This document shows, in pieces, positions 3 through 32,270 of a stretch of 59,901 bases of DNA; within the stretch, counting starts at the first letter, position 1, and every line of letters starts with the position of its first letter. The position numbers and the translations under genes were made by a program. The stretch lies in the NCBI GenBank assembly GCA_903845155.1, contig CAIMWN010000011.1:1-59901 (forward strand). The letters run 5' to 3'. The notes below the pieces were generated by a model. That model had not been told where the DNA came from. It saw only the letters and a list, made by a program, of their open reading frames with translations, and did not search any database. The DNA comes from Oligoflexia bacterium. GTDB lineage: Bacteria > Bdellovibrionota > UBA1018 > CAIMNF01.

Positions 3-779
3 CCCATCATTCAAGAAAAACTCACTCAAGCCTCTGTCATTGTAATACAACAACCAAGCCCCGTACCTACTCCCGCCCCCGTAGTCCGTCGAGAACCCAG
101 TGCTTTTGATCTTGCAATCAGCAGGCTTGGTTTTGCCCTTGATTTAGGCTATTTTGCAGTGAAATAGCAAGACTTGAGTACGGGAGAGCGATCTACTATG
201 CTTTCGCGACTGAACCCAGGAGCGCTTGGATATTGGAAATTGGAATGGAATGATCAGTTTGAAACCAAGGCAACTTTCCGATACCAAAATTACACCATCG
301 TGCAATTTGAAGATTATAAATCAATTCAAAATCCAAATGGCAGCCGACTCTCTACTGAATTGTTAGGCACTTATCATTTTCACAATTCATTTTCCTTGGA
401 ACTTGGATTTGGAACTGAAGAGGAACTTTTTAATCGCTCGCTTAACACGAGTCTCATCAAAATAGATACCATCGCACTTCCCTATGCTAAATTGGGTGTG
501 AATTATCGCTGGTTGAGTTATCGCGGAATTACGCTCGACCAAGATGTCTACGGAAAATATTTTTTCTCGGGCACCACTGCCGATTATTCGATTGCAAGCG
601 GGACTGAATATGGTTCATCCGTAACGCTTTCCCATCGCTTCGATACTTTGGAACGTAAAAGAATTTTCCTAAATCTTTACTATCAAAGTTACTCACAAAA
701 CACCTCCATTACGAACAACCAATTCACAGCAATTGGGATGATGCTCGGCCTCGAATTCAAACTCAACGACGACAATTAG
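3..779 (+). pseudogene. outer-membrane beta-barrel protein, 5'-truncated by the window, interrupted by in-frame TAG
   Basis: The frame is open from the window edge to a TAG at 165-167, then continues in the same frame to the stop at 777-779. Before the TAG it reads as a Pro-rich linker followed by a strand-like segment (FALDLGYFAVK). After it come alternating aromatic and polar strands typical of a porin-like barrel (for example FETKATFRYQNYTIVQF). Both sides read as one barrel domain, so this looks like a single gene with a nonsense mutation. AAA-TAG-CAA is one base from a Gln codon. The downstream part could restart at TTG 174 or ATG 198, but neither has a convincing ribosome site and the product would lack a signal peptide. 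The family is not recognised. A sequencing error at 165-167 is the main alternative. Confidence 0.6.
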
Positions 780-947
780 CCAAAAAACTTGCTTCAGTTC
801 CCCATACCCCAAAATCGCGTTGAGTCGCTTGACGTTTTTCACGTTATTTACGCCATTTAAATGCTACTTTTTGTGCAGTCGTCAAAATAAATCCTCTGTG
901 GAATTCCCCTGTAATTACCGACAAGTCTTTAGGAAAGCTTGGGTAAA

Positions 948-3900
948 TTGAAACAAATTTCATTGAAATTACAAACGAAGAAAGTAGAAAGTGAGTCTCA
1001 AAAGACCCATCTATCACAGCTCTCTTTCTTAAGAGAAAATTGTGCTAGAGGTATTTTGTTTAATTTTTCTTTAGCCATCGCACTACTACTCACTGCTTGT
1101 TCGAACCCACTTGGTGGAGGCAGCGGTGTATCTACCATCAGCCAAGTTTACAATCCCGGGCTCCCAGTAGGCGCTTCCCACTCTGATCCTCAATATTCAA
1201 CTATCGTTGCGAACAACACCAATGTCGTTGCAGATGGTGTTTCTAAAGTGAATGTGACCATTACCCTTCAAGATTCAAATCAAAATCCCATTCCAAATGA
1301 ATCTCCTATTTTTATTGCAACCGACACTGGAAGTACAAATCAATATGGCGCTTGTACCAAAAGCAATATTTATGGAATTTCAACTTGTACCTTTACCTCC
1401 ACCAAAGCGGAAACAAAAACGCTAAGTTTAGTCAGTCCCGCTGCCATCAGCGGGAACAGCATTACTTTTATCAATGGAGTTGCCACTTCAATCACCTACC
1501 TCACTCAACCTACTGGAGGTGTCGCACCGAGCACAGTACTTCCCTCTCAACCAAGTGTTAAAATCATGGATGCGTTTGGAAATACCGTGACCACCGGAAT
1601 CGATGCCACTGCACCCATTTCACTTTCGCTCACCAGCGGAACTGGTGCACTCACCGGAACCACGACCAGCAATGCGTCGGGCGGTATTGCCACTTTTAGC
1701 GGAATCGCTATTGACACCATGGGCGCAAATAAAGTCATTACTGCAACTAAGGCTGCAACTGCCGGAAGCGGGAGCTTGTCTGTTGCTTCTCAAAATTTTG
1801 ATGTGAATCCAAATATTCCTGGAGCATTTACCATCACCTCTGCCACTTCTGGTGGCGGTCAAATTACGCTTGCATGGGGAGACGCGAGCAACGCGGCTTC
1901 GTACACGCTCAAATACGGAACTGCATCTGGAACTTACGGCACCATTGTATCCACGAGTGCAACTTCACCGTATGTCATCACCGGACTCAACAATGCAGGC
2001 ACGTATTACTTTATGGTGACCGCAGTAAACATTTCTGGATCGACCAATGCTACCTCTGAAATGGTAGCGACTCCTTCCACTCCCCCTTCTGCTCCTACAC
2101 TTACGCTCGCCGCGACACCGGGAACAGTGGGGCTTTCATGGACTGCAGCCACAGGAACAGGCCCTATCACCTATGCAGTACGGCGATCCAGCACCAGTGG
2201 GTCAGGATACACCACTCTCACTACGGGACTGAGCTCTACTTCTTACAACGACACCACCGTCGCCAACGGAACTCAATATTATTATATTGTGGACGCAAGT
2301 AATGCTGGTGGAACTTCGAGTTCGAGTGAACAAACAATCAAACCAATTAACAACTTTACGATCTCTAGTCTTACTCAAACAGGAAATGGTCAAATACAAA
2401 TAGCATGGGGAAATGCCACTGGGTCCTCTAGTTATACTGTAAAATATGGAACGAGCACTGGGGTGTATGGCACCACCGCTACTTCCAGTGCAACTTCGCC
2501 CCTCACAGTGAGTGGCCTTAGTAACGGAAACACTTACTACTTCATGGTCACCGCCAATAACAGCGTGGGATCTGGCACAAGCCTGAATGCGAGCGGCGAA
2601 TCATCCATTTCACTTCTCGCTATTCCTTCTGCGCCTGCTTCACTCACGGCAACTGCAACTCCGGGATCAGTCGCACTTTCATGGACACTCGTTTCAGGCT
2701 CAGGCACGCTCACCTATAATGTTTCTCGCTCCACGACTTCCGGATCTGGTTATAGTGTAATTGCAAGCGGGCTCACCTCAACTTCTTATACTGACAGCAC
2801 GGTCACTAACGGAACCGCTTATTATTATGTCGTCACCTTAAGTAATGTTTCTGGAACTTCTCCTTATTCAAATGAAGCGGCGGTAAAACCAATTGGAACA
2901 TTTACAATTTCAGCACTTACCGTGAACGGATCAGGCGGATTACAAGTAACATTTGGAAGTGCGACGGGCGCATCTACTTATACTGTCAAATACGGAACCA
3001 CCACTGGCGTATACGGATCAACTGCCTCTACGAGCGCCACTTCTCCTTACTCCATCACGGGTCTGAGTCCCGGCACTCCTTACTATGTCATGGTGATTGC
3101 AAATAATGCTATCGGTGCTGGAACTTCTCAAAATGCAAATATAGAAATCTCAGGCACTCCGCTTGGATCGTTTACTATTTCCTCGGCAGTTGCATCCTCA
3201 GGGCAAACAGCCCTTTCCTGGGGATCTTCAAGTGGAGCAACTTCCTACGATGTAAAATACGGTACTGCAACCGGCGTTTACGGAACTACATTCGCCAATA
3301 CTACTTCTACCTCAAGCACAGTGACTGGTCTCACCAACGGCACAACTTACTACTTGATGATCACGGCTAAAAACGCAACTGGTTCTCTGAATGCCACGAG
3401 TGAAGTGACTACCAATCCAATTGCAATTCCGACCATTCCTGCTTCGCTCACTGGAGTAGCCACCCACAATCAAGTTGCACTTTCTTGGGGAGCATCGACT
3501 GGCTCTGGAACCATTACTTATACTGTCTATAAATCTACCACTTCAGGCTCCGGCTACTCAAGCATTGCGACTTCTCTTTCTAGTCCAAACTATACAGATA
3601 CATCCGTGACTGATGGAACTGTTTATTATTATGTTGTGACGAGCAGTAATGCAGGGGGCACGAGCAATAATTCAGCTGAATTCGATGCCGAACCAATTAA
3701 TAACTTTTCACTTTCTAGTTTATCCACCGGGAACAGCACCGCACTTCTAAATTGGGGGGCCGCTACGGGTGCTACCAGTTATGACATTAATTATGGAACT
3801 GCAACGGGCGTTTACGGTTTAACAGCAAGTAACCAGACTTCGCCCGGAACCGTGTCGTCACTCACTGCGGGCACCACCTACTACTTCAGAGTCACTGCAA

Positions 3901-6900
3901 AGAACTCCCATCATGGTTTAGTCACCTCTAACAATGAACTTTCAGGAACACCGGTAAGCGGATTTGCGATCACCGGGTTAAATCAAAATGGAATTGGTAG
4001 TGCCGCCATCTCTTGGAGCGCCTCTTCTGGATCCACGAGTTACGATGTAAAATATGGTACTTCTAGCGGTGTTTACGGCACCACTCTCATGAATCAAACG
4101 TCACCATTAAGTGTTGCACCTTTAGCTGCTGGTCAAACTTATTATTTTATCGTCACCGCTAACAATGGCTCAGGTTCCACAAACAGCGCTGAATCATCCG
4201 TTTCCTTGCTCACCATTCCAGCAGCACCTTCGTCTCTCACCGCAACAAGCGCTCCCGCTTCAGTAGCATTGTCTTGGAGCGCAGTCGCGGGGCCTGGCAC
4301 TATTTCATATGATGTTTATCGTTCTACCACTTCTGGTACTTATGGATCAGCGCTTACTACTGGACTGACAAGCACCAATTATACCGATACCACTGCTAGC
4401 AATGGAACCACTTACTACTACGTCATCACTGCTAATAATATTTCGGGAGAATCTGCGCATTCAAATGAAATCTCAACTCGCCCTATTTCTGCATTTACCA
4501 TATCAGCAGTATCCATCAATGGTGCGGGCGCATTACAAGTATCTTGGGGAGCGGCAGCTGGTGCTGCTTCTTACACTTTAAAATACGGAACCGCTACGGG
4601 AGTATACGGAACTACGGTTTCAACTTCGGCGACTTCCCCTACTACTATTTCTTCTCTCACTGCAGGAACTACTTATTACTTCATGGTCGTTGCTAATAAT
4701 ACAGTTGGTGCAGGAACCTTAGTGAACGCAACTGAAACTACCGGCGTCCCAATGAATAGTTTTTCGATCACCGGCAACACTGCAACTACTGGCCAAGATG
4801 CTCTCGCTTGGGGAGCTTCAACAGGCGCTACTTCTTATGATGTAAAATACGGAACCGCCACTGGCGTTTACGGAACTACTTTCGCCAATACCACTTCTAC
4901 TTCAAGCACCGTGACCGGGCTCACCAACGGTACTACTTACTACTTAATGGTTACTGCAAAAAATGGAAGCGGCTCACTGAACGCAAGTGCAGAAGTAGTT
5001 GCAAACCCAATTGCAATCCCCACTACGCCTACTACTCTAACTGGCCAAGGCACTCATAATAACAGTGCTCTTTCCTGGACGGCATCTACTGGCTCTGGCT
5101 CTATTACTTATAATATTTATCGTTCAGCGACTTCGGGATCAGGTTATTCAAAAATTGCGAGCGCTGTTTCTACCAACTATTACAACGATGCAGGTGCCAC
5201 TGATGGATCTGTTTATTACTACGTCGTCACCGCGCAAAATGCAGGCGGAGAAACCGCTTATTCAAATGAGTTTGATGTCGAACCGATTAATAACTTTTTA
5301 CTTGCAACTGCCGCACCAGGCAATGCACAAGTGGCACTCTCTTGGGCGAGCGCAACCGGGGCTACTCAGTATGATGTAAAATACGGAACCGCAACTGGTG
5401 TTTATGGCACCACCATCACGAATCAAACTTCACCAAAAACGGTGGGCACGCTCACTGCAGGCACTACTTATTACTTCAGCGTCACTGCGAGCAATGCTCA
5501 TCATGGCTTAGTGATTGCGACCAATGAACTGAGCGCCAAGCCATTTTCAAGTTTTACAATTACTTCAGTTACACAAAGCAGCGGCACTCAGGTTCAAGTA
5601 GCATGGGGCGCTTCAACAGGTGCGACGAGTTACGACATTCAATACGGAACCACGAGTGGCACTTACACCACTACCGTCAGCAATCAAACTTCACCTGCAA
5701 CCGTGACGGGCCTCAGTGCAGGCACAACTTATTACTTCATGGTCACGGCGAATAATTCAAGCGGTTCACTGAATGCCTCGAGCGAAGTGGGAATCTCACT
5801 CATTATTCCACCGTCTGTTCCCGCTAGCCTCACTGCAGTGGCCTCGAACACACAAGTTGCACTTACGTGGGGGGCGTCGAGCGGCGCAGGAACCATTACC
5901 TACAATGTACTCCGCTCTACCACTAGCGGCTCTGGTTATTCTGCTGTCTCAACCGCACAAAGCGGAACTACTTTCACGGATACGGGATTATCAAATGGGG
6001 TTGCTTATTACTATGTGATTCAATCTTCAAATATTGCTGGAAATAGCGCAAATTCTGGCGAAATATCTGGCAAACCCATTGCAGCGTTTAGTATTTCTAG
6101 TGTCACCACTGGCATCACCGGTGCTACGGTTGTGTGGGCAGCACCCAGTGGCGCCTCCACTTATACCGTCTATTACTCTACCACTTCAGGAAGTGCCGCT
6201 AGCGGAACTGCTGCTTGCGCTGCCACCTCATCTACATCTTGTGTAGTCAGTGGCCTTACAGGCGGAAGCACTTATTATTTTACGGTACTCGCTAGCAATG
6301 CAAACAACGGCGCACAATACGCAAGCGCCGAGGGCTCCACTACCGTGATGAGTGCAGTTACCTATAATTGGACTTTCGATACCGGCACCGATTCAAGTTA
6401 CACGTTTGATAGTAGTAAAATTGCACTCCTCACCGATGGCTCTGCTCAAGTGAGTTCGCTACAGAATTTAACTCCAAACGACGCTAGCAATTCAAACACC
6501 ACAGGCTTTGGTGCGGGCACCATGAGTGGCGTGCAATGGAACTCAGGCAGTTCAAAACTCACGCTTAATTCTAGTCTAGATACTGGGGAATTAAACTCCA
6601 CTTGGACTCCGCAATATTCTAATATTGTGGGTTATTGGAAACTTAATGGCACCACAGGAAGCTCCATCACCCAAGGAACCGATATACCAGCAACGATTGG
6701 CCCGGACGGAATTTTTCAAAATGCAAATGCTTCGACTTATCCTTTAACTGGGTTTACAGCAGGACAGCAAAATCAGGGAATTACTTTTGATGGAACCGAT
6801 GATTACATTACCTTAGGAAACACGAGCGCTCTTGATTTTGGAACGAGCACTAGTTTTTCAGTTCAAGTATGGACGAAGTGGACCAGCACTACACTTGGAA

Positions 6901-9900
6901 ATTTCCGCGTTTTCAGCACAGGAGTGAGTGGTAACTCGAATGGTATTTTAATTTGGGCGAATACCACCTCCGGAATTGCCGGTAACATTGGCTTAACCTT
7001 GGGTGCGGGAGGCGTCACTGCAAGCGCCGTTTCTATTTATACTAACTCCGCGTACAATGACGGAAATTGGCACCATGTGGTCGCAACGGTAAACCAAAGC
7101 ACTACTTTGGCAACACTTTATGTAGACGGTTCTCCTGCCGCCATTTCTAAATCAAGCGGTACCTGCGGGACCATTAGTGGAACCACCATTAACTTTAATG
7201 GTTGCGCTATCAATGCAAACCACAGCAACGCCTCAAGCACAATCGGGGCACGCTTTGATAGTTCTTGTTTCTTTCCGGGATCGCTGGACGAAATTGCTGT
7301 TTGGAAAGGAGCGCTCGCTACCAGCGATGTCAAAACCATTTATGAACGCCAGAAAGCGGCCTACACTGGCACTCTCTTATCACGCGTCATGAATCAAGGA
7401 GCATCTTCTTCTTGGACCGCACTCAATTGGTTAAGTACACTTCCGTTTGGGAAAGAAATTCCAAATAAAACTACCTATGAAGATGACACCAATTACGCCG
7501 GCATCTCTTCGCTGACTCGAGGGTTAACAGCTTCGTGGAGATTTGACGATATCGCTGCGTCTACCAGTGTTGCCGACGTTTCACTTAATGCAATTTCAGG
7601 AACAGCTACTAGTGTCACCTTCGGAGGCAGCGGAAAAATCAATACCGATGCGAGTTTTAATGGAACTTCAAGCTACATTAATATAAGCAACCCTTCTTCG
7701 CTTACTAATCTTGGCCCCATGACTGTTTCCACCTGGATCAATCCAAGCACCACTTCAGGGATGATATACTACAAGTGTGTAAATAATGGCACCAGTGGTT
7801 GGGATCTCTACCTCACGAACGGGAAAATTGGTTTCGAGAACTGCGCAAACGGACACAATAACGCGGTTGTCACTTCGAGTACAGTAAGTACAGGGGCATG
7901 GACTCACTTACTGGTCACTTATGATGGTTCACTCACTTATGGTGGCGTACATATTTACATCAACGGAGTAGAAGCAAGCTACAGCATTCAAGTTTCTGCG
8001 GGCGGATCACAAACCTCAGATTCATCAAACTCCCTCACGATCGGGAAAGGTGGTTCAACAGATAAAGCTGGAACTGTCGCCTATTACAGTGGGTATTTGG
8101 ATGAAGCTAATATTTGGAATCGAATTCTCACCAGTACTGAAATCTCAACTCTCTATGCGCGTACCACCTCAGTCGATCCTGCACTCACCTCACAACTAGT
8201 TGGGCTTTGGCATTTAGATGAAGCGTCAGGCTCCAGCACAGTCACCGATTCCTCGGGAAATGGAAATACAGGTACCGTCGTCAGTGGAACAACTTTAAAT
8301 ACAACTGGGAAAGTTGGCACAGCAGCGACGTTCAATGGAAGTACTGGTTTTATTAAAATTCCAAATAGCGCTACACTAGACACCAATCCAACTCAGTTAA
8401 GCATCGCTGCGTGGGCACAAACTTTAACCACTAACACCTATAAAATAATATACTCAGCTGGAAACGCGGGGTCACATTCTGCGCAAGTGTGGATCAATGG
8501 GGGCACCGCAGAGCTTTTCGGAAACAATACAACTTTAACTTCGTCAAAATCAGTTGCTGATGGAGCATGGCACCACATCGTTGGAGTATTCAATGGAACC
8601 ACTGGGATGCTTTACGTAGATGGGTCGCTCATTAATTCGGCTACGATGTCCATTAGCGCACTAGGCGCATATGATAATCAAATCGGCGGACAATGTGCAG
8701 GCCTAGGCAGCACTTCCTGTAATGCTTTATGGAACGGCTCTATAGACGAAGTCGGTGTCTGGTCCCGAGCCCTCTCTGCCACTGAGGTCACCCAACTCTA
8801 CCAACGCGGGGCGAATCGCACTAAATTCCAAATGCGCGTGTGCACAGCCGCAGATTGCAGTGATGATTCAACCCAAGCCAATTGGAAAGGCCCGGACGGA
8901 ACCAACGGAACTTATTTTAGTGAATTATTTAATATGGGAACCCAAGCCACAACTCCAAGCGGTAACGTACTTGCAACATCTCCCGCCATGACATTTGCAA
9001 ATTTCACTTCTCTCGGAAATCAAACGTCTCAATATTTGCAATATAAAGCCATTTTAGAAAGTGATAGTTCTTCTTACTCGCCCGACATTACTTCTGTATC
9101 AGCTGGCCCTGCCCGTTTTGATGGCTCAACACCTACAATCATCCCAGTGAATGGACCCGCATATCAGGCCTTAACAGGCTTTAGTGCAACAGTGGGTCCC
9201 GCTTTATGTAGTGGAACCGCGAAGTACCAACTTTCACGCGACAAAACTACTTGGTATTATTATAACAGCGGTTGGTCCTCTACTACTGGTGGATATTCAA
9301 ATGCAAGTGACGTCGCCACCATCAACACCAACATCGCCTCATTCGCGACCGGTGTCGGCACCGGCACACTTTATGTAAAAGCATATCTGCCTTCTGACAC
9401 CACCACTGCCTGTGAAATTGATTCTATTACTGTCAATGCAGGTGATACCAGCCCAAGCAATTCTTCAAATCCAGGTGCATTCCAACTTTCAAGTATTACT
9501 GATGGAACGAGCCAAGTTATATTAAATTGGAGCGCTTCGAGCGGTGCAACCTCTTATACCGTTTGTTACGGAACCACACAAGCACTCGCCAATGCGTGTG
9601 GCAGTACTTACTCGGCCGCTGCGGCCACTTCGGCCACCATCACAGGACTTACCAATAATACTCAATATTATTTTACGGTCACCGCTAACAATGCTTCGGG
9701 CTCAACGGCATCGAATCCTACCTCTACCATTATTAATTCAGCCACACCCATGGCAACTCCGAGCGCTCCTACTGCACTTGCAGCAACGGGAGGACTTGCA
9801 AACATCGGTCTTACTTGGACTGCTTCTACTTCGAGTGGTACTGGTGCCATTACTTATAATATTTTACGGTCTACCACTTCGGGATCGGGCTACACTACAC

Positions 9901-12900
9901 TTGCAAGTGGCGTTGCGACCCCGGCTTACACCGATCTTACCGCACTTGCTGGAACCACTTATTATTACGTTGTTTCTGCAAGTAATCCGGGAGGCACTTC
10001 GGCAAATTCTTCGCAAGTCTCAGCCGTGAGTATGTCTACATTCGCTATCAGTGCCGTAGCCACCAACACCACTGCAGTGATTAACTGGACAGCTGCCACC
10101 GGTGCCAGTGCCACCAATTACACCGTACAATACGGTACTGCTTCAGGAATTTATACTACCTCGGCAACTGCGCAATCGCAGGCTTCTGGTTATACGATTC
10201 CGGGTCTCACCAACGGCACAACTTATTATGTGTTAGTAACTGCAAATAACACCACGGGCACAGCACGCGCACAATATGAAATTCAAGTAAAACCGATTGC
10301 AAGCTTCAGTATCGGAAGTGTTACACTTGGCACGAGTTCAGTAAGTGTTGCGTGGACTGCACCCACAGGCGCTTCTACTTACACGATTAAATACTCAACG
10401 ACTTCGGGGCAAGCATCTGCGAGCGGAACCGCTGTTTGCGCAGCCTCTACCACTTCTCCTTGTTCTGTAACTGGGCTCACCGCCGGCACTACTTATTATT
10501 TTGTAGTTGCAGCCATCAACACTGCTAATGGTGCTTACACCACTAACGAAGTGAGTGCTGTTCCTTACCAACCTTTTACTTACAATAATTCGTTCGCTTC
10601 TGGTACCAGTGCCACTGACACCATCATCAGCAGCAACATCGATGTCAACTCATCAAATGTGTTGGAGCTCACTCCTGCGTATCAAACGGATAATAGCAGT
10701 AGTGCTACTGTTGGGTTTGCGGCCGGCACCTATGTAGGGACTACTTATGCATCAGTTGCGGATGGAATCGGTTCTGGGTCTGCGCTTCAAATGGGAAATG
10801 ATGGAACTTGTAATGGAAAGACTACGAATTGTAATGAGCTCAGTTCAACCTGGACGCCTGAGTGGGCAAGCATTGTCGGTGTTTGGCATTTTGATGGAAC
10901 CACCGGATCCGTAAGTTCTGGTACCACGACCAGTGATAGTTCTGGAAATGGAAACACAGGAACTTGGACAAACACCGGTGGATCTTATGTTGCGGGTAAA
11001 TTAAATAATACCGCTTATTTTAATGGATCAAGTCCCTATATTAATATTCCAAATGTACCCAATGTTTACAGTTTTAACGGCGCGTTCAGCGTAAGTGCAT
11101 GGGTAAAACTTTCTTACCTATCTCAAGAGGACATTGTCAGTAACTACACTAGCACCAATTCAGGGTTCTTTTTGGAATTAAACACTTCAGGTCAAATTCG
11201 ATTTACTTATAAAAATAGCGGCACTGCAATTTTTGATTTCACACAAACCACTGCGCTTTCTACAGCTCAGTGGTACCACATCGTTGCTGTTTATAATCCA
11301 AGCTTAGGCACCCAAAATGCAGTGGTCTATTTAAACGGATCACAAATGAGCGTCACTGCAAATGCAACCACATCGATTAGCATAACAAACCCGCTCGTAA
11401 TTGGAAGTATCGATGGCGGAGCCCAAAGTTTAGGGCGATATTTTTTTGGAGACATTGATGAAGTTGGAATTTGGAAAAATGCTTTGTCTTCAAATGAGGT
11501 TTCTCAAATTTATAATTCTCAACTTGCAACTTATGGCGGATCGTTTGTTTCTAGGGTAATGGACGCCCTCACCTCACAATCGTGGACTTCACTCGCCTGG
11601 ACTCCGACACTTCCGTTTTATAAAGCACTTCCTGACTATGCAAGCGGCGCAATTCAGAATGAAACCTCAACCAGTTACTCATCACTTGCTACCAACACCT
11701 TGATGTCAAACATCGCCGGACTTTGGCATTTAGATGAGACCAGTGGCACAAGCATCAGTGACAGTTCTGGTAATTCCAACACGGGCACGGTCACGAATGT
11801 AACACTCGGGGCTTCTGGAAAACTAAACTCGAGCGCCTATTTTAATGGAACAACCAGCAAAGCCGTAATTGCGAACTCAGCTTCACTCAATCCAAGTACC
11901 TCACTCACGATTAGTGCGTGGGTGTATCCAACCGTAAGCTCTCAAAGTACAGGCATTATGTACAAGTGGGGAACCGGATCCAGCAATCAATTTGCGTTTA
12001 GATTAAATAGTGGTGCCGCCCGAATTACCGTTGCTCAAAGCAATCAAAGCGTTGTGGCTGTTAATGGGGGCACCACTCTCCCTATTAATCAGTGGTCGCA
12101 TGTCATGGCGATTGCAAATTCAGCCGCAGGCACCCTTACTCTCTATGTAAACGGGGTAACTGATGGAAGCACTACTTACAACGGAACACTTTACACCGGT
12201 GGCGCAACGCCTGTGCCTTTGAGTATTGGTTGTCAAATTGATGATGCAGGATCTGTTTGTTATAATTTCCTTGCTGGAAATTTAGATGAAGTCGCTCTCT
12301 GGTCTCGAGCCTTAGGTACAACCGAAGTACAACAGCTTTACCAACGCGGAGCAAGCCGCATTAAATTCCAAGCTCGTTCTTGCAGTGATTCAACCTGCAC
12401 TACTGGCTCACCAACTTGGAAGGGGCCAGACGGAACTGCGAATACTTATTTCTCAGAATTAGATAATATGAGCACACAAGCTGCTACCCCAAGCGGAACT
12501 GTGAATGCAACTGCTCCATCCATGACACTCGCCAACTACACTTCTGCAATTGGTTCTAATCGCTATTTCCAATACCGCACTATTTTTGAAAGTGATTCAG
12601 CGACCACAACACTCATGCCAGAATTAAAAGCGGTTACCGTTGGTCCAAATCATTATGATACCAGCGACCCGGCAACTATTCCTATCAATGGTCCACAATT
12701 TACTACTCTCTCTGGTTTCACTGTCACATTAGGTACAAACGGTTGCTCATCTACGCCGCAATTTGAACTCTCTACCGATAAAGTGAATTGGTATTATTGG
12801 AATGGATCTGCGTGGACCGCTACCGCTCCTTCTTTTGCAAATTCAAATACAGCCGCCGTTGTTAATACAAACATTGCCTCGTTCGCAACTACCGTTGGAA

Positions 12901-15900
12901 CCGGCTACCTGTATGTGCGTACTTTCTTGTCATCCACCGGGACGAGTGCTTGTGAAATTAGTAACATCGCGATTGCAGGCGCAAATACAACTGTTTCAAA
13001 TTCCTCTGATCCGGGAAATTTCACTGCAACCGCTACCGCTGCCAATACTCAAGCCACTCTCACTTGGACTGCATCCACCAGTGCAACTTCATATACCATT
13101 AGATATGGCACCGCTACCGGAGTGTATGGAACCACACTCACTAATCAAACTTCTCCTGTAACCATCACCGGATTAACTAATAACACTCCTTATTACTTCA
13201 TGGTCTATGCAAATGATGCCACGGGATCTACTCCTGCAACGTACGAAGTGAGCGCGACTCCGATTGCAAGCTTCAGTATTTCAAGCATCACCGTTGGCGT
13301 GGGAACTGCGACCGTGAATTGGGGAGCTGCAAGTGGTGCGTCTTCTTATGCCATACAATACGGAACGACAAGCGGCACCTACACCACTACTTTAAATGCA
13401 CAAACTTCAGGTACAACCATCTCCTCTTTAACTGGCGGCACCACTTACTACTTTAGAGTGCAAGCAAGCAACGCCAATAATGGGCTCACAAACTCAGCAG
13501 AAGTGAGTACTGTTCCACTTCAAACTTTTACTTTCAATGATGCCTTCACTAGCGGTACGGGTTCTAGCAATACCATTTCAAGTAGCAATGTAGATGTGAA
13601 TTCATCGAATGTATTGGAACTCACTCCTGCGTATCAAACGGATAATAGCAGTAGTGCTACTGTTGGATTTGGAGGTGGCACCTATGCCGGCATTTCAAGC
13701 TACGGAACTCTTACTGGTGAAAGTTCATCTAACGGATTAAAATTGGGCAGTGATGGAACTTGCGATGGCCGCCTCAACAACTGCGCGGAACTGGCGAGTA
13801 CCTGGGCACCTCAATACGCAAATTTGACAGGATACTGGAAATTGAATGGCACTGTCGGAGCAATTGCGAACTCGGCGAGTATTCCTGCTACAGTGGGAAA
13901 TAATGGTACAGCAGTAGGAACCGGTATGAACTATGCTGCTGGACAACTTTACCAAGGTGTTTCATTTAACGGAGGCGCAAACGGGATTAGCGTCAACCCA
14001 GCACTTGCAACTACTCAATACAATATCAGCGTTGCAGGATGGTTTAACAGTACCTCTACAGGAGCAAGACAAGGTCTCTTTGATTTTCTCACCACTGGAG
14101 GAACTTCCTATTTTCAAGCATATTTAGATGCCACCGGTAAAGTAAATATGCAATTAGGAAACGGTTCTGGAACATGCACGTACACATCCCTCGTTGGTAC
14201 TGTTGGCGGTTATGAAGACGGAAACTGGCACCACTACGTATATGTAAGAGATTATACCGCCCAGAAACATTACTTGTACATCGACGGTAAATTAAACAAT
14301 TCAGCAAGCGATACCCGCACCTGCAATTTATATACGACCACCGCTTACATTGGGCGAGACAACAACCCTTATCAATTAACAGGTATGGTGGATGATTTTG
14401 CAATATGGAGCACCGTCCTCTCAGCTGCTGATGTTTCAACCCTCTACGGTTTCCAAGCTTCCCAGCGGAGTTATGGCGGAATGTATACCTCCCGCGTAAT
14501 GGACGCCCTCACCTCACAATCATGGACTTCACTCGCCTGGACACCGACACTTCCGTTTTACAAAGCGCTACCTGATTACGCATCAAGTGCCGTACAAAAT
14601 GAAACTTCAACAACGTACTCTTCTTTACAGGGAGATACTCCGGCAACTGGCGATAATAATTTAATGACCGGGATTGTGGGGCTTTGGCATTTAGATGAAG
14701 CGGCTGGAACAAGCGGCACCGGAAGCGTGAAAGATACTTCAGGACAAACCAACAATGGAACACCGACCAGTGTGACGCTTGGAGCGAGTGGTAAATTTAA
14801 TACTGCAGCAACATTTAATGGAACGTCATCGAATATAGCTTTAGGCACCCCTAGTTCTCTCGCGTTCGGAACCACAACTAGCTTCACTGCTTCAGCTTGG
14901 TTCAAAACTACTGCGACTTCTGGCCGAATAGTAGGCAATGGTCCTGGTGGTTATTCTACTACAGGATGGGGCATGATCTTAAACGGAAGCACTGGCGTTG
15001 CCATACTTTTGGGTGCAAATACGGGTGTAAATACTGATTCAGTCAGTATTTATACTTCACCAACCACGAACGATGGTAACTGGCACTTGGTCACTGCAAC
15101 TTTTAATCAATCCACTAAGAAAATCATAGCCTACATTGACGGTTTACAGAGTGCTATTACCTTACAGTCAAGCACTTGTGGTTCCATCACTGCAAATGTG
15201 GTAGACTACTCCGCTTGTACCAAAGTAACTGCGAACTATGATTCAGGCGGCGGAACTTCTGCGAATATTGGATCTCATAACACTTCATCGGGTTACTTTA
15301 ATGGCTCCATCGACGAAGTCGCTGTCTGGAACAAAGTATTAAACGCCACTGAAGTGAAACAACTCTACCAACGCGGAGCAAGCCGTATTAAATTTCAAGC
15401 ACGTTCTTGCAATGATTCAACCTGCACCACCGGTTCACCGACCTGGAAGGGGCCAGACGGAACTGCGAATACTTATTTCTCAGAATTAGATAATATGAGC
15501 ACCCAAGCCGCCACTCCAAGCGGTACCGTAAATGCAACGGCTCCATCCATGACACTTGCGAATTATACTTCTGCAATTGGGTCTAACCGTTATTTCCAGT
15601 ACCGCACCATTTTTGAAAGTGATTCAGCGACCACAACACTCATGCCAGAATTAAAAGCAGTCACCGTGGGTCCAAATCACTACGACACCAGCGATCCTGC
15701 GACCATTCCTATCAACGGTCCACAATTTACTACTCTCTCTGGTTTCACTGTCACTTTAGGTACAAACGGTTGCTCATCTACGCCGCAATTTGAACTCTCT
15801 ACCGATAAAGTGAATTGGTATTATTGGAACGGATCTGCATGGACAGCAACCACGCCTTCTTTTGCAAACTCAAACACAGCCGCCGTCATCAATACGAATA

Positions 15901-18900
15901 TTGCTTCGTTCGCTACCACTGTTGGAACCGGCTACTTATATGTGCGCACTTTTCTACCTTCTACCGGCGCAAGCGCATGCGAAATTAGTAACATCGCGAT
16001 TGCAGGCACGAATGCAACAGTTGCTAATTCATCAGACCCAGGTAATTATACAGTGAGCGCAACTGCTGCAAATACACAAGCAACACTCACCTGGACTGCA
16101 GCAACGAGCGCCACCTCATACACCATCCGATACGGCACTGCGAGTGGTGTGTACACCGGCACCGCACTCAACCAAACTTCTCCTGCTACGATCACAGGAT
16201 TAACCAACAACACGCCTTACTACTTCATGGTCTATGCAAACGATGCAACAGGCTCTACCCCTGCAACTTATGAAGTGAGCGCAACTCCGATTGCAAGCTT
16301 CAGTATTTCAAGCATCAGCGTTGGTGTGGGAACTGCGACCGTGAATTGGGGAGCAGCAAGTGGCGCGTCTTCTTATGCCATACAATATGGAACCACAAGC
16401 GGTACCTATACTACCACCGTTTCAGGGCAAACTACAGGTGCAACCATTTCTTCGCTCACTGGCGACACCACTTATTATTTCCGTGTTCAAGCAACAAATG
16501 CAAATAATGGGCTTACGAATAGTGCGGAAGTAAGCGCAATTCCAACACAAACATTTACTTACAACTGGCCATTCACCAACGGCACCACCGCAAGCTACAC
16601 ACCTAGCAGTGGAACTTGGGGTTCTTCTACTATGGACTTCACCTCGGCAGGTGTCTGCGAACTCACTCCTGCGTATCAAACAGACAGTAGCAGTAGTGCC
16701 ACTATCGGCTTTGGTGGTGGTACCTATGTTGGGACTACTTACACTACAGTTGCGGATGGAATAAGTTCTGGGTCTGCACTCCAAATGGGAAGCGATGGCA
16801 CGTGCAATGGCACGACTACAAATTGTAATGTGCTCAGTTCTGTTTGGACACCTAACTATTCTAATTTAGCCGGATATTGGAAATTTGATGGCTCAGGATC
16901 AATTGCTACAGGATCAAGTAATATTACCGCAACCGCGGGCTCAAACGGTAGCTCAAGCAATGCAAATGGCTCAGGCCTTGCGTATGTCAGCGGTAAACTC
17001 GGACAAGGAATTAGTTTTGATGGAATTGATGATTCCATTTCTCTCGGTACTCTAGGAAACTTTGGTTCATCTCTCAGTTCAGCATCTACTATTTCACTTT
17101 GGGTTAAAACCTCGTCCACTAGCAGTACCTCAAATTTTGGCTTTATCAATTCAGGTACCGCCACTTTGGTGAAAATAGATTTCAATGCTACCACCAACCT
17201 TTCTTACAGCGCAGGATCAACTGCATTTGAATTACGTGATGACACGGGTAAAGGTATTAATGGATCTATCGCCACCAATATCTACGATGGAAACTGGCAT
17301 CAAATCACATGGGTGATCAATGGCCCAGCTAACACTTTCACCATCTATGTCGATGGAACAAACGTTACCTTTACTTATGGCACTAAGACTACTCCTAGCA
17401 GTTTTTCGAATCTCGGGTATGCGTTTACAATAGGCGCAGAAAACAACAGAGGAGCAGTGCAAGGATTTTTTACAGGCTCCGTCGACGAAGTGGCGTTTTG
17501 GAGTGCCGGGCTCACCGCCACTCAAGTTGCGCAACTCTACAACAACCAAGCCGCTACCTACGGCGGTTCTTTCACTTCCCGCGTGATGGACGCCCTCTCT
17601 TCACAATCTTGGACTTCACTTGCGTGGACTCCAACGCTTCCATTTTATAAAGCACTACCTGACTACGCAAGCAGCGCCGTTCAAAATGAAACATCCACTG
17701 TGTACTCATCATTGAAAGGTGATACTCCGGCAACCGGCGATAATAATTTAATGACGGGAATTGTCGGGCTTTGGCATTTGGATGAAGCAGCAGGAACGAC
17801 TGGCGCAAATACGGTAATAGATCATTCAGGGCAGGGCAACAATGGGACACCGACAAGTGTGACTTTTGGCGGAACCGGAAAACTTAGCACTGCTGCAAGC
17901 TTTAATGGAACCAGTAGTTCGATCGCCATGGGAAGCGGCCCGGCATTAAATACTTTTTCAATATCAGCGTGGATAAATGCCTCCTCTGCAATTACTGCAA
18001 CATCAGTCATCGCGGGGAGAATGCAAGGTTCTGCTGGTGGAACCAAACATAACTACTATCTACTAATCGATGGGACCACAAAAAAACTTGATATCGGCTT
18101 TAGCAATGGCTCTACTTGGCCAACAGTCCTTGGAACTAATACCACTTGGACTATCGGCACCTGGTATCACGTGGTTGGCACTTACGATGGCACAACTTCC
18201 TTACTCTATATCAATGGTGTATCAGACCCAACAACATCAGGTGCGGCATCTGGAACGCCCAACACCGCCGGCTCATTCACTCTAGATATCGGAGCAGATA
18301 CACCTGAATCAGCTTACTACTTTCCTGGCTCAATTGATGAAGTTGCTATTTGGAACAAAGCTTTGAACGCCACCGAAGTGAAACAACTCTACCAACGCGG
18401 AGCCAGCCGCTTAAAATTCCAAGTCCGTACCTGTAGCGAAAACACTTGCACCACCGGCTCTCCAACCTGGCAAGGTCCAGATGGAACAACTGCAACATAC
18501 TTCTCAGAGTTAGATAATATGAGCACTCAAGCTGCCACACCAAGCGGAACCGTGAATGCTGGAGCTCCATCCATGACTCTACAAAATTATACAAGCCCAG
18601 TCGGTACGAATCGCTACTTCCAATACCGCACCATTTTTGAAAGCGACTCTTCAACTACTGCGCTCATGCCAGAATTAAAAGCAGTGACAGCAGGGCCAAA
18701 CCACTACGACACTTCCACTCCTACCGTATACGGCACGAGTGGCTCTGCTTATGTCACACTGACTGGCTTCACGGTTACTTTGGGCGGCAATGGCTGCGCC
18801 GGCACGGCTAAATATCAACTCTCTAAAGATCAGTCTACTTGGTATTATTGGAATGGCTCTGCTTGGGTAAGCGGTACTGCGTATGCATCCGCAAGTGACG

Positions 18901-19043
18901 CTGCCACCATCAATACCAACATCAGCACATTCCCGACCACCGCAGGTGTGGGCACCGGCACTATTTATGTCCGCGCGTACTTGCCTTCTACAGGAACCGC
19001 CGCCTGCGAAATTGATAATATTAATGTGACGGGGACGCAGTGA
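948..19043 (+). CDS. giant multidomain lipoprotein (Ig-like, FN3 and LamG/concanavalin-like repeats), about 6,030 aa
   Basis: A probable surface-anchored adhesin or glycan-binding protein. The N-terminus has a basic stretch, a hydrophobic helix and a lipobox (LLLTAC, about residue 54), implying lipid anchoring. Rough order: two bacterial Ig-like domains (86-290); 17 FN3 domains (290-1805), many ending in a TTYYFMVTA-type strand; three LamG-like domains (1898-2620), with WHHVVATV and IDEVAVW-type signatures; four FN3 (2845-3210); then three blocks of LamG pairs (3315-3800, 4296-4810, 5309-5823) separated by pairs of FN3. A conserved QLYQRGASR...KFQ.R.C module with cysteines follows every second LamG. 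No C-terminal sorting domain is seen; it ends in a Cys-containing beta module. TTG 948 is chosen because AGGAAAG (931-937) lies 10 bases upstream; TTG 939 in the same frame is too close to it. Cell adhesion through LamG/FN3 is family knowledge; the ligand is unknown. Confidence 0.93.
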   Translation: MKQISLKLQTKKVESESQKTHLSQLSFLRENCARGILFNFSLAIALLLTACSNPLGGGSGVSTISQVYNPGLPVGASHSDPQYSTIVANNTNVVADGVSKVNVTITLQDSNQNPIPNESPIFIATDTGSTNQYGACTKSNIYGISTCTFTSTKAETKTLSLVSPAAISGNSITFINGVATSITYLTQPTGGVAPSTVLPSQPSVKIMDAFGNTVTTGIDATAPISLSLTSGTGALTGTTTSNASGGIATFSGIAIDTMGANKVITATKAATAGSGSLSVASQNFDVNPNIPGAFTITSATSGGGQITLAWGDASNAASYTLKYGTASGTYGTIVSTSATSPYVITGLNNAGTYYFMVTAVNISGSTNATSEMVATPSTPPSAPTLTLAATPGTVGLSWTAATGTGPITYAVRRSSTSGSGYTTLTTGLSSTSYNDTTVANGTQYYYIVDASNAGGTSSSSEQTIKPINNFTISSLTQTGNGQIQIAWGNATGSSSYTVKYGTSTGVYGTTATSSATSPLTVSGLSNGNTYYFMVTANNSVGSGTSLNASGESSISLLAIPSAPASLTATATPGSVALSWTLVSGSGTLTYNVSRSTTSGSGYSVIASGLTSTSYTDSTVTNGTAYYYVVTLSNVSGTSPYSNEAAVKPIGTFTISALTVNGSGGLQVTFGSATGASTYTVKYGTTTGVYGSTASTSATSPYSITGLSPGTPYYVMVIANNAIGAGTSQNANIEISGTPLGSFTISSAVASSGQTALSWGSSSGATSYDVKYGTATGVYGTTFANTTSTSSTVTGLTNGTTYYLMITAKNATGSLNATSEVTTNPIAIPTIPASLTGVATHNQVALSWGASTGSGTITYTVYKSTTSGSGYSSIATSLSSPNYTDTSVTDGTVYYYVVTSSNAGGTSNNSAEFDAEPINNFSLSSLSTGNSTALLNWGAATGATSYDINYGTATGVYGLTASNQTSPGTVSSLTAGTTYYFRVTAKNSHHGLVTSNNELSGTPVSGFAITGLNQNGIGSAAISWSASSGSTSYDVKYGTSSGVYGTTLMNQTSPLSVAPLAAGQTYYFIVTANNGSGSTNSAESSVSLLTIPAAPSSLTATSAPASVALSWSAVAGPGTISYDVYRSTTSGTYGSALTTGLTSTNYTDTTASNGTTYYYVITANNISGESAHSNEISTRPISAFTISAVSINGAGALQVSWGAAAGAASYTLKYGTATGVYGTTVSTSATSPTTISSLTAGTTYYFMVVANNTVGAGTLVNATETTGVPMNSFSITGNTATTGQDALAWGASTGATSYDVKYGTATGVYGTTFANTTSTSSTVTGLTNGTTYYLMVTAKNGSGSLNASAEVVANPIAIPTTPTTLTGQGTHNNSALSWTASTGSGSITYNIYRSATSGSGYSKIASAVSTNYYNDAGATDGSVYYYVVTAQNAGGETAYSNEFDVEPINNFLLATAAPGNAQVALSWASATGATQYDVKYGTATGVYGTTITNQTSPKTVGTLTAGTTYYFSVTASNAHHGLVIATNELSAKPFSSFTITSVTQSSGTQVQVAWGASTGATSYDIQYGTTSGTYTTTVSNQTSPATVTGLSAGTTYYFMVTANNSSGSLNASSEVGISLIIPPSVPASLTAVASNTQVALTWGASSGAGTITYNVLRSTTSGSGYSAVSTAQSGTTFTDTGLSNGVAYYYVIQSSNIAGNSANSGEISGKPIAAFSISSVTTGITGATVVWAAPSGASTYTVYYSTTSGSAASGTAACAATSSTSCVVSGLTGGSTYYFTVLASNANNGAQYASAEGSTTVMSAVTYNWTFDTGTDSSYTFDSSKIALLTDGSAQVSSLQNLTPNDASNSNTTGFGAGTMSGVQWNSGSSKLTLNSSLDTGELNSTWTPQYSNIVGYWKLNGTTGSSITQGTDIPATIGPDGIFQNANASTYPLTGFTAGQQNQGITFDGTDDYITLGNTSALDFGTSTSFSVQVWTKWTSTTLGNFRVFSTGVSGNSNGILIWANTTSGIAGNIGLTLGAGGVTASAVSIYTNSAYNDGNWHHVVATVNQSTTLATLYVDGSPAAISKSSGTCGTISGTTINFNGCAINANHSNASSTIGARFDSSCFFPGSLDEIAVWKGALATSDVKTIYERQKAAYTGTLLSRVMNQGASSSWTALNWLSTLPFGKEIPNKTTYEDDTNYAGISSLTRGLTASWRFDDIAASTSVADVSLNAISGTATSVTFGGSGKINTDASFNGTSSYINISNPSSLTNLGPMTVSTWINPSTTSGMIYYKCVNNGTSGWDLYLTNGKIGFENCANGHNNAVVTSSTVSTGAWTHLLVTYDGSLTYGGVHIYINGVEASYSIQVSAGGSQTSDSSNSLTIGKGGSTDKAGTVAYYSGYLDEANIWNRILTSTEISTLYARTTSVDPALTSQLVGLWHLDEASGSSTVTDSSGNGNTGTVVSGTTLNTTGKVGTAATFNGSTGFIKIPNSATLDTNPTQLSIAAWAQTLTTNTYKIIYSAGNAGSHSAQVWINGGTAELFGNNTTLTSSKSVADGAWHHIVGVFNGTTGMLYVDGSLINSATMSISALGAYDNQIGGQCAGLGSTSCNALWNGSIDEVGVWSRALSATEVTQLYQRGANRTKFQMRVCTAADCSDDSTQANWKGPDGTNGTYFSELFNMGTQATTPSGNVLATSPAMTFANFTSLGNQTSQYLQYKAILESDSSSYSPDITSVSAGPARFDGSTPTIIPVNGPAYQALTGFSATVGPALCSGTAKYQLSRDKTTWYYYNSGWSSTTGGYSNASDVATINTNIASFATGVGTGTLYVKAYLPSDTTTACEIDSITVNAGDTSPSNSSNPGAFQLSSITDGTSQVILNWSASSGATSYTVCYGTTQALANACGSTYSAAAATSATITGLTNNTQYYFTVTANNASGSTASNPTSTIINSATPMATPSAPTALAATGGLANIGLTWTASTSSGTGAITYNILRSTTSGSGYTTLASGVATPAYTDLTALAGTTYYYVVSASNPGGTSANSSQVSAVSMSTFAISAVATNTTAVINWTAATGASATNYTVQYGTASGIYTTSATAQSQASGYTIPGLTNGTTYYVLVTANNTTGTARAQYEIQVKPIASFSIGSVTLGTSSVSVAWTAPTGASTYTIKYSTTSGQASASGTAVCAASTTSPCSVTGLTAGTTYYFVVAAINTANGAYTTNEVSAVPYQPFTYNNSFASGTSATDTIISSNIDVNSSNVLELTPAYQTDNSSSATVGFAAGTYVGTTYASVADGIGSGSALQMGNDGTCNGKTTNCNELSSTWTPEWASIVGVWHFDGTTGSVSSGTTTSDSSGNGNTGTWTNTGGSYVAGKLNNTAYFNGSSPYINIPNVPNVYSFNGAFSVSAWVKLSYLSQEDIVSNYTSTNSGFFLELNTSGQIRFTYKNSGTAIFDFTQTTALSTAQWYHIVAVYNPSLGTQNAVVYLNGSQMSVTANATTSISITNPLVIGSIDGGAQSLGRYFFGDIDEVGIWKNALSSNEVSQIYNSQLATYGGSFVSRVMDALTSQSWTSLAWTPTLPFYKALPDYASGAIQNETSTSYSSLATNTLMSNIAGLWHLDETSGTSISDSSGNSNTGTVTNVTLGASGKLNSSAYFNGTTSKAVIANSASLNPSTSLTISAWVYPTVSSQSTGIMYKWGTGSSNQFAFRLNSGAARITVAQSNQSVVAVNGGTTLPINQWSHVMAIANSAAGTLTLYVNGVTDGSTTYNGTLYTGGATPVPLSIGCQIDDAGSVCYNFLAGNLDEVALWSRALGTTEVQQLYQRGASRIKFQARSCSDSTCTTGSPTWKGPDGTANTYFSELDNMSTQAATPSGTVNATAPSMTLANYTSAIGSNRYFQYRTIFESDSATTTLMPELKAVTVGPNHYDTSDPATIPINGPQFTTLSGFTVTLGTNGCSSTPQFELSTDKVNWYYWNGSAWTATAPSFANSNTAAVVNTNIASFATTVGTGYLYVRTFLSSTGTSACEISNIAIAGANTTVSNSSDPGNFTATATAANTQATLTWTASTSATSYTIRYGTATGVYGTTLTNQTSPVTITGLTNNTPYYFMVYANDATGSTPATYEVSATPIASFSISSITVGVGTATVNWGAASGASSYAIQYGTTSGTYTTTLNAQTSGTTISSLTGGTTYYFRVQASNANNGLTNSAEVSTVPLQTFTFNDAFTSGTGSSNTISSSNVDVNSSNVLELTPAYQTDNSSSATVGFGGGTYAGISSYGTLTGESSSNGLKLGSDGTCDGRLNNCAELASTWAPQYANLTGYWKLNGTVGAIANSASIPATVGNNGTAVGTGMNYAAGQLYQGVSFNGGANGISVNPALATTQYNISVAGWFNSTSTGARQGLFDFLTTGGTSYFQAYLDATGKVNMQLGNGSGTCTYTSLVGTVGGYEDGNWHHYVYVRDYTAQKHYLYIDGKLNNSASDTRTCNLYTTTAYIGRDNNPYQLTGMVDDFAIWSTVLSAADVSTLYGFQASQRSYGGMYTSRVMDALTSQSWTSLAWTPTLPFYKALPDYASSAVQNETSTTYSSLQGDTPATGDNNLMTGIVGLWHLDEAAGTSGTGSVKDTSGQTNNGTPTSVTLGASGKFNTAATFNGTSSNIALGTPSSLAFGTTTSFTASAWFKTTATSGRIVGNGPGGYSTTGWGMILNGSTGVAILLGANTGVNTDSVSIYTSPTTNDGNWHLVTATFNQSTKKIIAYIDGLQSAITLQSSTCGSITANVVDYSACTKVTANYDSGGGTSANIGSHNTSSGYFNGSIDEVAVWNKVLNATEVKQLYQRGASRIKFQARSCNDSTCTTGSPTWKGPDGTANTYFSELDNMSTQAATPSGTVNATAPSMTLANYTSAIGSNRYFQYRTIFESDSATTTLMPELKAVTVGPNHYDTSDPATIPINGPQFTTLSGFTVTLGTNGCSSTPQFELSTDKVNWYYWNGSAWTATTPSFANSNTAAVINTNIASFATTVGTGYLYVRTFLPSTGASACEISNIAIAGTNATVANSSDPGNYTVSATAANTQATLTWTAATSATSYTIRYGTASGVYTGTALNQTSPATITGLTNNTPYYFMVYANDATGSTPATYEVSATPIASFSISSISVGVGTATVNWGAASGASSYAIQYGTTSGTYTTTVSGQTTGATISSLTGDTTYYFRVQATNANNGLTNSAEVSAIPTQTFTYNWPFTNGTTASYTPSSGTWGSSTMDFTSAGVCELTPAYQTDSSSSATIGFGGGTYVGTTYTTVADGISSGSALQMGSDGTCNGTTTNCNVLSSVWTPNYSNLAGYWKFDGSGSIATGSSNITATAGSNGSSSNANGSGLAYVSGKLGQGISFDGIDDSISLGTLGNFGSSLSSASTISLWVKTSSTSSTSNFGFINSGTATLVKIDFNATTNLSYSAGSTAFELRDDTGKGINGSIATNIYDGNWHQITWVINGPANTFTIYVDGTNVTFTYGTKTTPSSFSNLGYAFTIGAENNRGAVQGFFTGSVDEVAFWSAGLTATQVAQLYNNQAATYGGSFTSRVMDALSSQSWTSLAWTPTLPFYKALPDYASSAVQNETSTVYSSLKGDTPATGDNNLMTGIVGLWHLDEAAGTTGANTVIDHSGQGNNGTPTSVTFGGTGKLSTAASFNGTSSSIAMGSGPALNTFSISAWINASSAITATSVIAGRMQGSAGGTKHNYYLLIDGTTKKLDIGFSNGSTWPTVLGTNTTWTIGTWYHVVGTYDGTTSLLYINGVSDPTTSGAASGTPNTAGSFTLDIGADTPESAYYFPGSIDEVAIWNKALNATEVKQLYQRGASRLKFQVRTCSENTCTTGSPTWQGPDGTTATYFSELDNMSTQAATPSGTVNAGAPSMTLQNYTSPVGTNRYFQYRTIFESDSSTTALMPELKAVTAGPNHYDTSTPTVYGTSGSAYVTLTGFTVTLGGNGCAGTAKYQLSKDQSTWYYWNGSAWVSGTAYASASDAATINTNISTFPTTAGVGTGTIYVRAYLPSTGTAACEIDNINVTGTQ
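10668..19040 (+). repeat. three-copy, roughly 3-kb in-frame tandem repeat inside the giant gene
   Basis: Three long units start at the same landmark (protein LTPAYQTD) at 10668, 13620 and 16662, giving spacings of 2,952 and 3,042 bases. Each unit encodes LamG, a SRVMDAL...LPFYKALPDY linker, a second LamG, a Cys-containing KFQ.R.C module and, except in the last copy, an FN3 pair. The first 47 bases of copies 1 and 2 appear identical. The stretch from 12,361 to 13,500 closely matches 15,388 to 16,530 at DNA level. This points to recent segmental duplication or ongoing recombination, on top of the older domain-level repetition in the proximal half. Confidence 0.85.
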
Positions 19044-20188: not shown

Positions 20189-20229
20189 AGTGGTTTCATC
20201 TTAATGAATGAGAAGGCACCTGTCAAATC

Positions 20230-20253
20230 GTAAAATACCATTGTCGATTTTAC
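20230..20253. promoter_or_regulatory. inverted repeat upstream of the DUF4143 ATPase gene
   Basis: GTAAAAT (20230-20236) and ATTTTAC (20247-20253) form a 7-bp inverted repeat with a 10-base spacer, 42-65 bases upstream of the ATPase start. Position and symmetry suit an operator or autoregulatory site. This is inference. Confidence 0.35.
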
Positions 20254-20305
20254 ATAACTAAAATATTGTCAGCACCCCTCCTCTGCCGGAGGCAGAAATG
20301 ATTAT

Positions 20306-20464
20306 ATTCGGGCAATAGAGTTCGGAAAACTATTACAATATAGCCCCAAAGGACTTCGCCGATTTCACTTAGGTGATTACAGTGTGAGTTTTCAAATTGA
20401 TGATAGAAGTAAGATCGTTTTGATTGTCAAAATTGGTCATCAAAAAGAAGTTTACGAAGGATAG
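20306..20464 (+). pseudogene. RelE/ParE-family toxin remnant (C-terminal fragment)
   Basis: The plus strand encodes a C-terminal RelE-type signature ending at TAG 20462-20464: RRFHLGDYSVSFQIDD, then KIVLIVKIGHQKEVY. This matches the usual RLR.GDYR..Y.I.D....VLI..IGHR..VY pattern of the family. The frame is open only back to a stop at 20255-20257, contains no ATG, GTG or TTG start, and covers about half a toxin. No antitoxin gene is seen next to it. Its 3' end overlaps the end of the MFS gene by 13 bases. Most likely a decayed toxin-antitoxin locus. Confidence 0.65.
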
Positions 20465-24596: not shown

Positions 24597-24650
24597 GCCC
24601 AGTAGAATAGTTCGATTTAAGCCTAAAATCTATGATAATCTGAGCTTGAA

Positions 24651-28297: not shown

Positions 28298-28299
28298 GT

Positions 28300-29895: not shown

Positions 29896-29901
29896 AAGTG
29901 A

Positions 29902-30850: not shown

Positions 30851-30863
30851 AGTCCTAAAAAGT

Positions 30864-32177: not shown

Positions 32178-32270
32178 GTAGCGCGCACGCTAGCACACTG
32201 CTTCACCTAAACCAATGATCATCCTCATGAATAGATGAATCTTGTCCACCGAGAGCCACGCGATCGGACC

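Follow-up and report, generated by a model that had tools for sequence, protein, structure and literature searches.

How a lipoprotein of several thousand residues is brought to a cell's surface, held there and put to use is the question raised by a 59,901-base contig of an Oligoflexia bacterium (the window, meaning the whole stretch of DNA that was analysed). The contig belongs to a 4.29-Mb assembly of 337 contigs, and metagenome-assembled genomes (MAGs) of Bdellovibrionales and Oligoflexia are the closest to it in named collections, in keeping with an affiliation to Bdellovibrionota. Behind this lies the wider question of how recognition of many different partners is achieved by predatory and epibiotic microbes. 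A sequence-only reading of the window had described one open frame of about 6,030 codons as a lipid-anchored chain of two Ig-like, about 25 FN3 and nine LamG domains, an unusual combination with a possible part in cell contact.

The frame itself is sound. It opens with TTG and runs through 6034 codons with zero internal stops (Table 1); its start is uncertain, with TTG codons at 939, 948 and 963 all feasible. A tandem-repeat search of the gene finds no tandem array, the strongest internal DNA duplication has 85% identity over 1.17 kb (the internal duplications are old), and exact repeats reach no more than 74 nt; collapse or misjoining by short reads is therefore unlikely. Unbroken frames of great length with these modules recur, at 3596 and 2531 aa in other assemblies, at 3258 aa on another contig of the source genome, and also in single-contig genomes, which speaks against an isolated artefact. 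Assembly collapse, which the sequence-only reading had named among the findings that would undo it, is rejected on both counts, and it is unlikely that the giant frame is an artefact of assembly. Elsewhere in the window, the reverse strand at 30864-32177 encodes a protein with a transglutaminase-elicitor domain (PF16683, E 1.3e-28), a domain known mainly from oomycetes, and the forward strand at 53576-56845, right after tRNA-Phe, encodes a 1089-aa protein with no Pfam match.

The inventory of domains largely stands. Big_1, fn3 and Laminin_G_3 are all matched far over their cut-offs: scanned in thirds, the giant protein matches fn3 (PF00041) at E 6e-73, 3e-33 and 9e-20, above the curated cut-off, and Laminin_G_3 (PF13385) at E 1e-89 and 6e-70 in the second and third thirds, the whole-protein scores for the latter being 299 and 235 bits against a curated cut-off of 27.6. 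Per-domain searches count 22 FN3 domains at E <= 1e-3, which makes "about 25" a fair estimate, and nine LamG domains, exactly as proposed. Of the two Ig-like domains one is a Big_1 domain by Pfam; the second is recognised by eye and draws no Pfam call. The signal for the predicted lipid anchor is also there: LLTAC follows a hydrophobic stretch and conforms to the lipoprotein pattern [LVI][ASTVI][GAS]C, and related lipoproteins of the family have canonical short signal peptides.

Table 1. Features of the giant lipoprotein gene and of the barrel gene upstream, in window coordinates.
Feature	Position	Strand	Remarks
Partner gene, 3' part, outer-membrane beta-barrel	3..779	+	cut by the contig edge, any LysM part off contig; in-frame TAG 165-167
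201-aa ORF past the TAG, most of the barrel domain	174..779	+	ORF and profile match
Giant lipoprotein gene	939..19043	+	6034 aa
Lipobox LLTAC, residues 50-54	1086..1100	+	Cys54 codon 1098-1100; by eye and by script
YNPG, candidate docking motif	1149..1160	+	17 residues after the lipidated Cys
Ig-like domain (Big_1), residues 87-177	1197..1469	+	Pfam PF02369, E 3.5e-10
Second Ig-like repeat	1491..1817	+	boundaries approximate; by eye; similar stretches in paralogues; no Pfam call
N-terminal FN3 array	1818..6308	+	PF00041 matches
Compound module M1	6354..9440	+	three LamG: 6630-7352, 7530-8165, 8202-8810
FN3 spacer	9468..10538	+	PF00041
Compound module M2	10575..12983	+	LamG1 10878-11522, LamG2 11718-12350
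Internal duplication, 85% identical	12321..13486 (copy 1); 15348-16513 (copy 2)	+	H3, C-terminal domain and FN3 pair
FN3 pair, M2-M3 junction	13005..13511	+	PF00041
Compound module M3	13527..16010	+	LamG1 13830-14456, LamG2 14679-15377
FN3 pair, M3-M4 junction	16035..16535	+	PF00041
Compound module M4	16554..19040	+	LamG1 16872-17549, LamG2 17766-18401; C-terminal conserved domain 18711-19040
Nested unit H2-LamG2-H3 of M4	17562..18695	+	stretch modelled with AlphaFold2

The LamG domains are not beads on a string. The C-terminal two thirds of the protein consist of four compound modules (M1-M4) linked by FN3 domains, each with the order N-terminal segment, LamG1, scaffold segment H2, LamG2, scaffold segment H3 and C-terminal domain, M1 having an extra LamG. 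The signatures of the two scaffold segments are GGSFTSRVMDA..WTSLAWTPTLPF.KALPDY for H2 and RLKFQVRSC...GPDGT..YFSEL...RYFQYRTIFESD...PELKSV for H3; the domain that closes each module (YQLSxDxxTWYYWNGSAW...ACEIDNI.V) is likewise conserved and has no Pfam model. That LamG2 is inserted into the scaffold follows from three observations: two related loci have the scaffold and LamG2 and lack LamG1, a Pacearchaeota MAG has H2 and H3 contiguous without LamG2, and AlphaFold2, given 35 aligned units, folds H2-LamG2-H3 as one body (pLDDT 87.9, pTM 0.89) with scaffold strands at positions 2-24, before the LamG, and 282-377, after it. (An earlier AlphaFold model of a whole 822-aa module was poor, with pLDDT 61 and pTM 0.46, and was not used.) At the level of sequence and structure prediction LamG2 is thus nested in a scaffold domain, and by the same logic LamG1 would be nested also; the scores of the model suggest that strands pair across the insertion. 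The scaffold finds no match in Pfam even at E 10, and matches in the PDB span the LamG part only. This part superposes on domain 4 of the arabinanase AbnA (5hon, crystallised with a ligand) with a TM score of 0.79 by target; many matches to botulinum and tetanus proteins and to sialidases reflect a common jelly-roll fold and were set aside as evidence of relatedness.

Scaffold and lectin cores have had different histories. Between M2 and M3 the scaffold side is nearly uniform (99% identity in H3, 95% in the C-terminal domain, 84% in H2), whereas LamG1 and LamG2 are only 27% and 39% identical; differences at fourfold-degenerate sites number 36 of 109 in H3 and the C-terminal domain versus 54 of 73 in the LamGs (p 8e-8). 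A tree of LamG domains does not join those of M2 and M3 as sisters: with moderate support and several long branches, LamG1 of M3 clusters with the LamGs of a lipoprotein on contig C102 of the same genome (98/79), LamG2 of M3 with LamGs from two other genomes (87/91), and LamG2 of M2 with the last LamG of M1 (95/86). Scaffold and lectin, as their sequences tell it, evolve separately, in a mosaic manner; either the LamG cores have been exchanged or the scaffold has been homogenised by conversion, and both would leave a constant scaffold with varied heads. An exchange of cores is what this pattern of evolution would suggest for the function of the modules.

The combination of domains, thought unusual when the window was read by itself, turns out to characterise a family in Bdellovibrionota. 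Single-module lipoproteins of about 640-1070 aa with the same order of segments are present throughout the order, and closed genomes encode lipoprotein-Ig-FN3-module proteins of 1.4-2.0 kaa. The source genome encodes other proteins with LamG domains: lipoproteins of 3.2 kaa on C195 and 4.1 kaa on C215, and the C102 lipoprotein, which has 754 aa and three LamGs. On contig C295 of this genome (L012 3727-5223) a prepilin-like protein (GFTLLELLMVIAILS) has a LamG at its end, with a GspE/PilB-like gene and a secretin-like match close by.

The same nested form also occurs at four loci of Patescibacteria and Diapherotrites. With a profile of H3 at E <= 1e-5, scaffold matches are found in 46 of 291 genomes of Bdellovibrionota, 42 of 240 of Patescibacteria and 27 of 228 of the phylum that includes a Woesearchaeota genome, compared with 2 of 241 in Chloroflexota, 5 of 195 in Myxococcota and 6 of 231 in Verrucomicrobiota (Fisher p 1e-8 to 2e-15), the comparison phyla having been picked for a known match or near-match, which works against the contrast, and the profile having been trained mainly on Bdellovibrionota sequences, which works in its favour. 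Three genomes of the Woesearchaeota-containing phylum, of about 1.2-1.3 Mb, carry open frames of 8-9 thousand aa with H3 matches (G663:C2, G713:C12 and G651:C28).

The claim that N-terminal lipid is the anchor stands as far as the lipobox goes, but lipid probably accounts for only part of it, since genes of the family often adjoin one for an outer-membrane barrel. The recurrent barrel, of about 220 aa, is preceded in many of these partner proteins by LysM (Pfam E values down to 7e-11) and a proline-rich linker; in others a FecR-like stretch, recognised by eye, takes that place, or there is none. At five loci, and twice at one of them, the barrel gene and the start of the lipoprotein gene overlap or abut, and this arrangement is seen in single-contig genomes of one family. 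The barrel profile matches 87 of the 291 Bdellovibrionota genomes, with 29 of the 46 scaffold genomes among them as against 58 of the other 245 (p 3.6e-7). Adjacent barrel-lipoprotein pairs number 17 in the 291 genomes where about 0.43 would be expected within 10 kb, the pairs having been read from two match lists, the expectation being analytic, by way of genome sizes, and related genomes not being independent. When loci are drawn for the barrel alone, 7 of 12 have a giant serine/threonine-rich lipoprotein directly adjoining, some of these lacking the module; conversely, several module lipoproteins (at three loci, for example) have no barrel gene nearby, and in two loci of this genus, one of them the C195 locus of the source genome, the barrel is divergently oriented. 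One closed genome has two tandem barrel/lipoprotein pairs (L110, 2396-7600 and 8813-14254), and a close relative of one of these pairs stands alone in another genome. At three loci a FecR-like N-terminal part replaces LysM in barrel homologues beside giant lipoproteins, and at one of the three (L132) a kinase-like ORF lies between the two genes. A search of the PDB with the barrel gives no match.

The window has its own remnant of this partner. A LysM/barrel profile built without the window sequence matches the stretch immediately before the giant gene at E 1.1e-25, and a second barrel profile, which includes the window sequence, scores it at 1.6e-78 with one TAG inside; the remnant ends 159 bp upstream of the giant gene's TTG. 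Clear homology to the barrel continues on both sides of the TAG, which may mark a pseudogene, an assembly error or recoding; the barrel gene of the window may accordingly be inactive or wrongly read, and the local pair may be broken. Just past the lipidated Cys of the giant protein is an aromatic-x-Pro-Gly-like motif, and a motif of this kind at the mature N terminus, C-x(5-19)-[YF]-x-[PGA]-[GNTF], is found in 19 of 22 barrel-adjacent but 4 of 26 other lipoproteins (p 1.3e-6), having been defined post hoc and tested on the same data, with close relatives among the sequences. Since it was chosen after many of the sequences had been viewed, its association with barrel adjacency is a lead.

What emerges, with about an even chance of being right, is a barrel-assisted, peptidoglycan-tethered surface adhesin that functions like a split intimin or invasin, while not being a member of that family in sequence. 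Lipobox proteins cross the inner membrane by Sec and receive at the Cys the lipid that keeps them in the outer membrane, and the giant protein would follow this course, with Cys54 as its site of lipidation. Its Ig-like and FN3 domains would form a stalk and its four compound modules the binding heads, in which a beta-sandwich scaffold bears LamG domains in its loops and lectin-type cores could be exchanged with the scaffold unchanged. The barrel, often with its N-terminal LysM, would tether the pair to peptidoglycan and help the lipoprotein to reach the outer face or stay there, and the aromatic-x-Pro-Gly-like motif would be the docking point; conserved adjacency is what suggests these roles for barrel and motif. 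The likely targets would be glycans on other cells, whether prey or neighbours, to judge from the LamG fold and from the lineages that carry the scaffold. From all this we infer surface exposure, barrel docking, glycan binding and contact with other cells, and contact or adhesion, the function first suggested for the gene, is retained as the likeliest. Our literature search for LamG in Bdellovibrio found nothing, and the one on giant genes in predatory bacteria and on LysM barrels paired with lipoproteins turned up no account of the pair, most subscription papers lying outside it. We propose more tentatively, and as somewhat doubtful in its entirety, an undescribed two-gene display system of Bdellovibrionota in which a LysM barrel would take the lipoprotein by its aromatic-x-Pro-Gly motif and so hold giant FN3/LamG surface fibres, lectin cores would be swapped within a conserved scaffold, and that scaffold, common to host-dependent Patescibacteria and DPANN-type archaea, would serve recognition of partner or prey.

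The barrel could instead be a bystander, or a co-expressed porin anchored to peptidoglycan, and the lipoprotein be exported to the surface by a type II secretion system (T2SS) like InvL or pullulanase. We consider this unlikely, although the source genome encodes a GspD secretin that exceeds the cut-off of its family, the invasin-like lipoprotein InvL depends on the T2SS for its surface display (PMC9245377), and some module lipoproteins have no barrel neighbour: T2SS export leaves unexplained why barrel adjacency and gene overlap are conserved across several families and why the motif accompanies them. It is decidedly improbable that the heads capture polysaccharide for nutrition, in the service of extracellular degradation; the closest structural match of the LamG is indeed the binding domain of an arabinanase, but the Pfam scan of the giant protein finds no catalytic domain, and no glycan-degrading family is found among the neighbour genes tested (19052-32945, a region with a glycosyltransferase-like ORF excluded). 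Least probable of all is a structural protein of the periplasm or cell envelope, with its lipid in the inner leaflet of the outer membrane and its LysM partner on peptidoglycan: a lipobox is by itself no proof of surface exposure and the partner family does have a peptidoglycan-binding LysM, but more than 35 serial domains, if extended, would far exceed the length of the periplasm, arrays of LamG and FN3 domains typify extracellular proteins, and Bd0875 of Bdellovibrio bacteriovorus is a lipobox adhesin exposed on the outer face (PMC11003981).

A modular head with variable lectin cores in a fixed scaffold would be one answer to the problem of partner recognition. The conserved barrel partner makes export and anchoring of a giant lipoprotein testable by deletion of a single gene. 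Should the enrichment of the scaffold in Bdellovibrionota, Patescibacteria and the Woesearchaeota-containing phylum prove robust to an unbiased profile, it would suggest that unrelated small-cell lifestyles have a contact module in common. Scaffold, C-terminal companion domain and barrel have no family model, and naming them would annotate many proteins.

Among known systems, two-partner secretion (type Vb) finds no counterpart, the barrels and the giant protein having no Pfam match to POTRA or haemagglutination-activity domains, nor do the partner proteins match Slam, a surface-lipoprotein translocator with a barrel domain and N-terminal TPR. The LamG region matches the TafC family of fimbrial proteins (NCBIfam NF052521), but membership is rejected at 160.4 bits against a cut-off of 410 bits; the literature yielded no explanatory paper on TafC. 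The mosaic adhesive trimers (MAT) of Bdellovibrio and Bd0875 are, like the giant protein, taken as predator surface adhesins, Bd0875 also having a lipobox (PMC10769870, PMC11003981), and for one MAT protein it is established that surface fibres recognise prey glycans (PMC10769870). The MAT fibres differ in being described as trimeric, with beta-helix tips and no mention of a laminin domain (PMC10769870), and Bd0875 is a MIDAS/vWA protein (PMC11003981). InvL of Acinetobacter is a surface lipoprotein of invasin-like architecture; it differs in its size (492 aa), its relation to InvA through a C-type-lectin-like fold, its export by the T2SS and the absence of any reported barrel partner (PMC9245377). 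ZirTSU-type platforms resemble the pair, by their description, in that a barrel serves separately encoded passengers, ZirT being itself an inverse autotransporter with a passenger of its own (PMC6714894).

In its layout the pair is akin to the inverse autotransporters of type Ve (intimin, invasin, YeeJ), which share LysM (in the larger members), a barrel of about 220-245 aa, an Ig-like passenger and a lectin-type head (PMC6714894). LysM ahead of the barrel, as in type Ve, is a trait of many partner proteins, gives way to a FecR-like part or is missing in others, and in the window falls off the contig. The intimin-like beta-barrel (PF11924) defines that family (PMC6714894); membership is rejected, with no PF11924/IAT_beta match among the scanned barrels and with separate genes, and comparison of the partner barrel with YeeJ by profile and by hhalign detects no similarity. 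The heads here are LamG domains where those of type Ve are C-type lectins, and barrel and passenger, joined in type Ve, are two genes, the passenger being a lipoprotein. The barrel/lipoprotein pair may thus work in the manner of an inverse autotransporter from outside that family.
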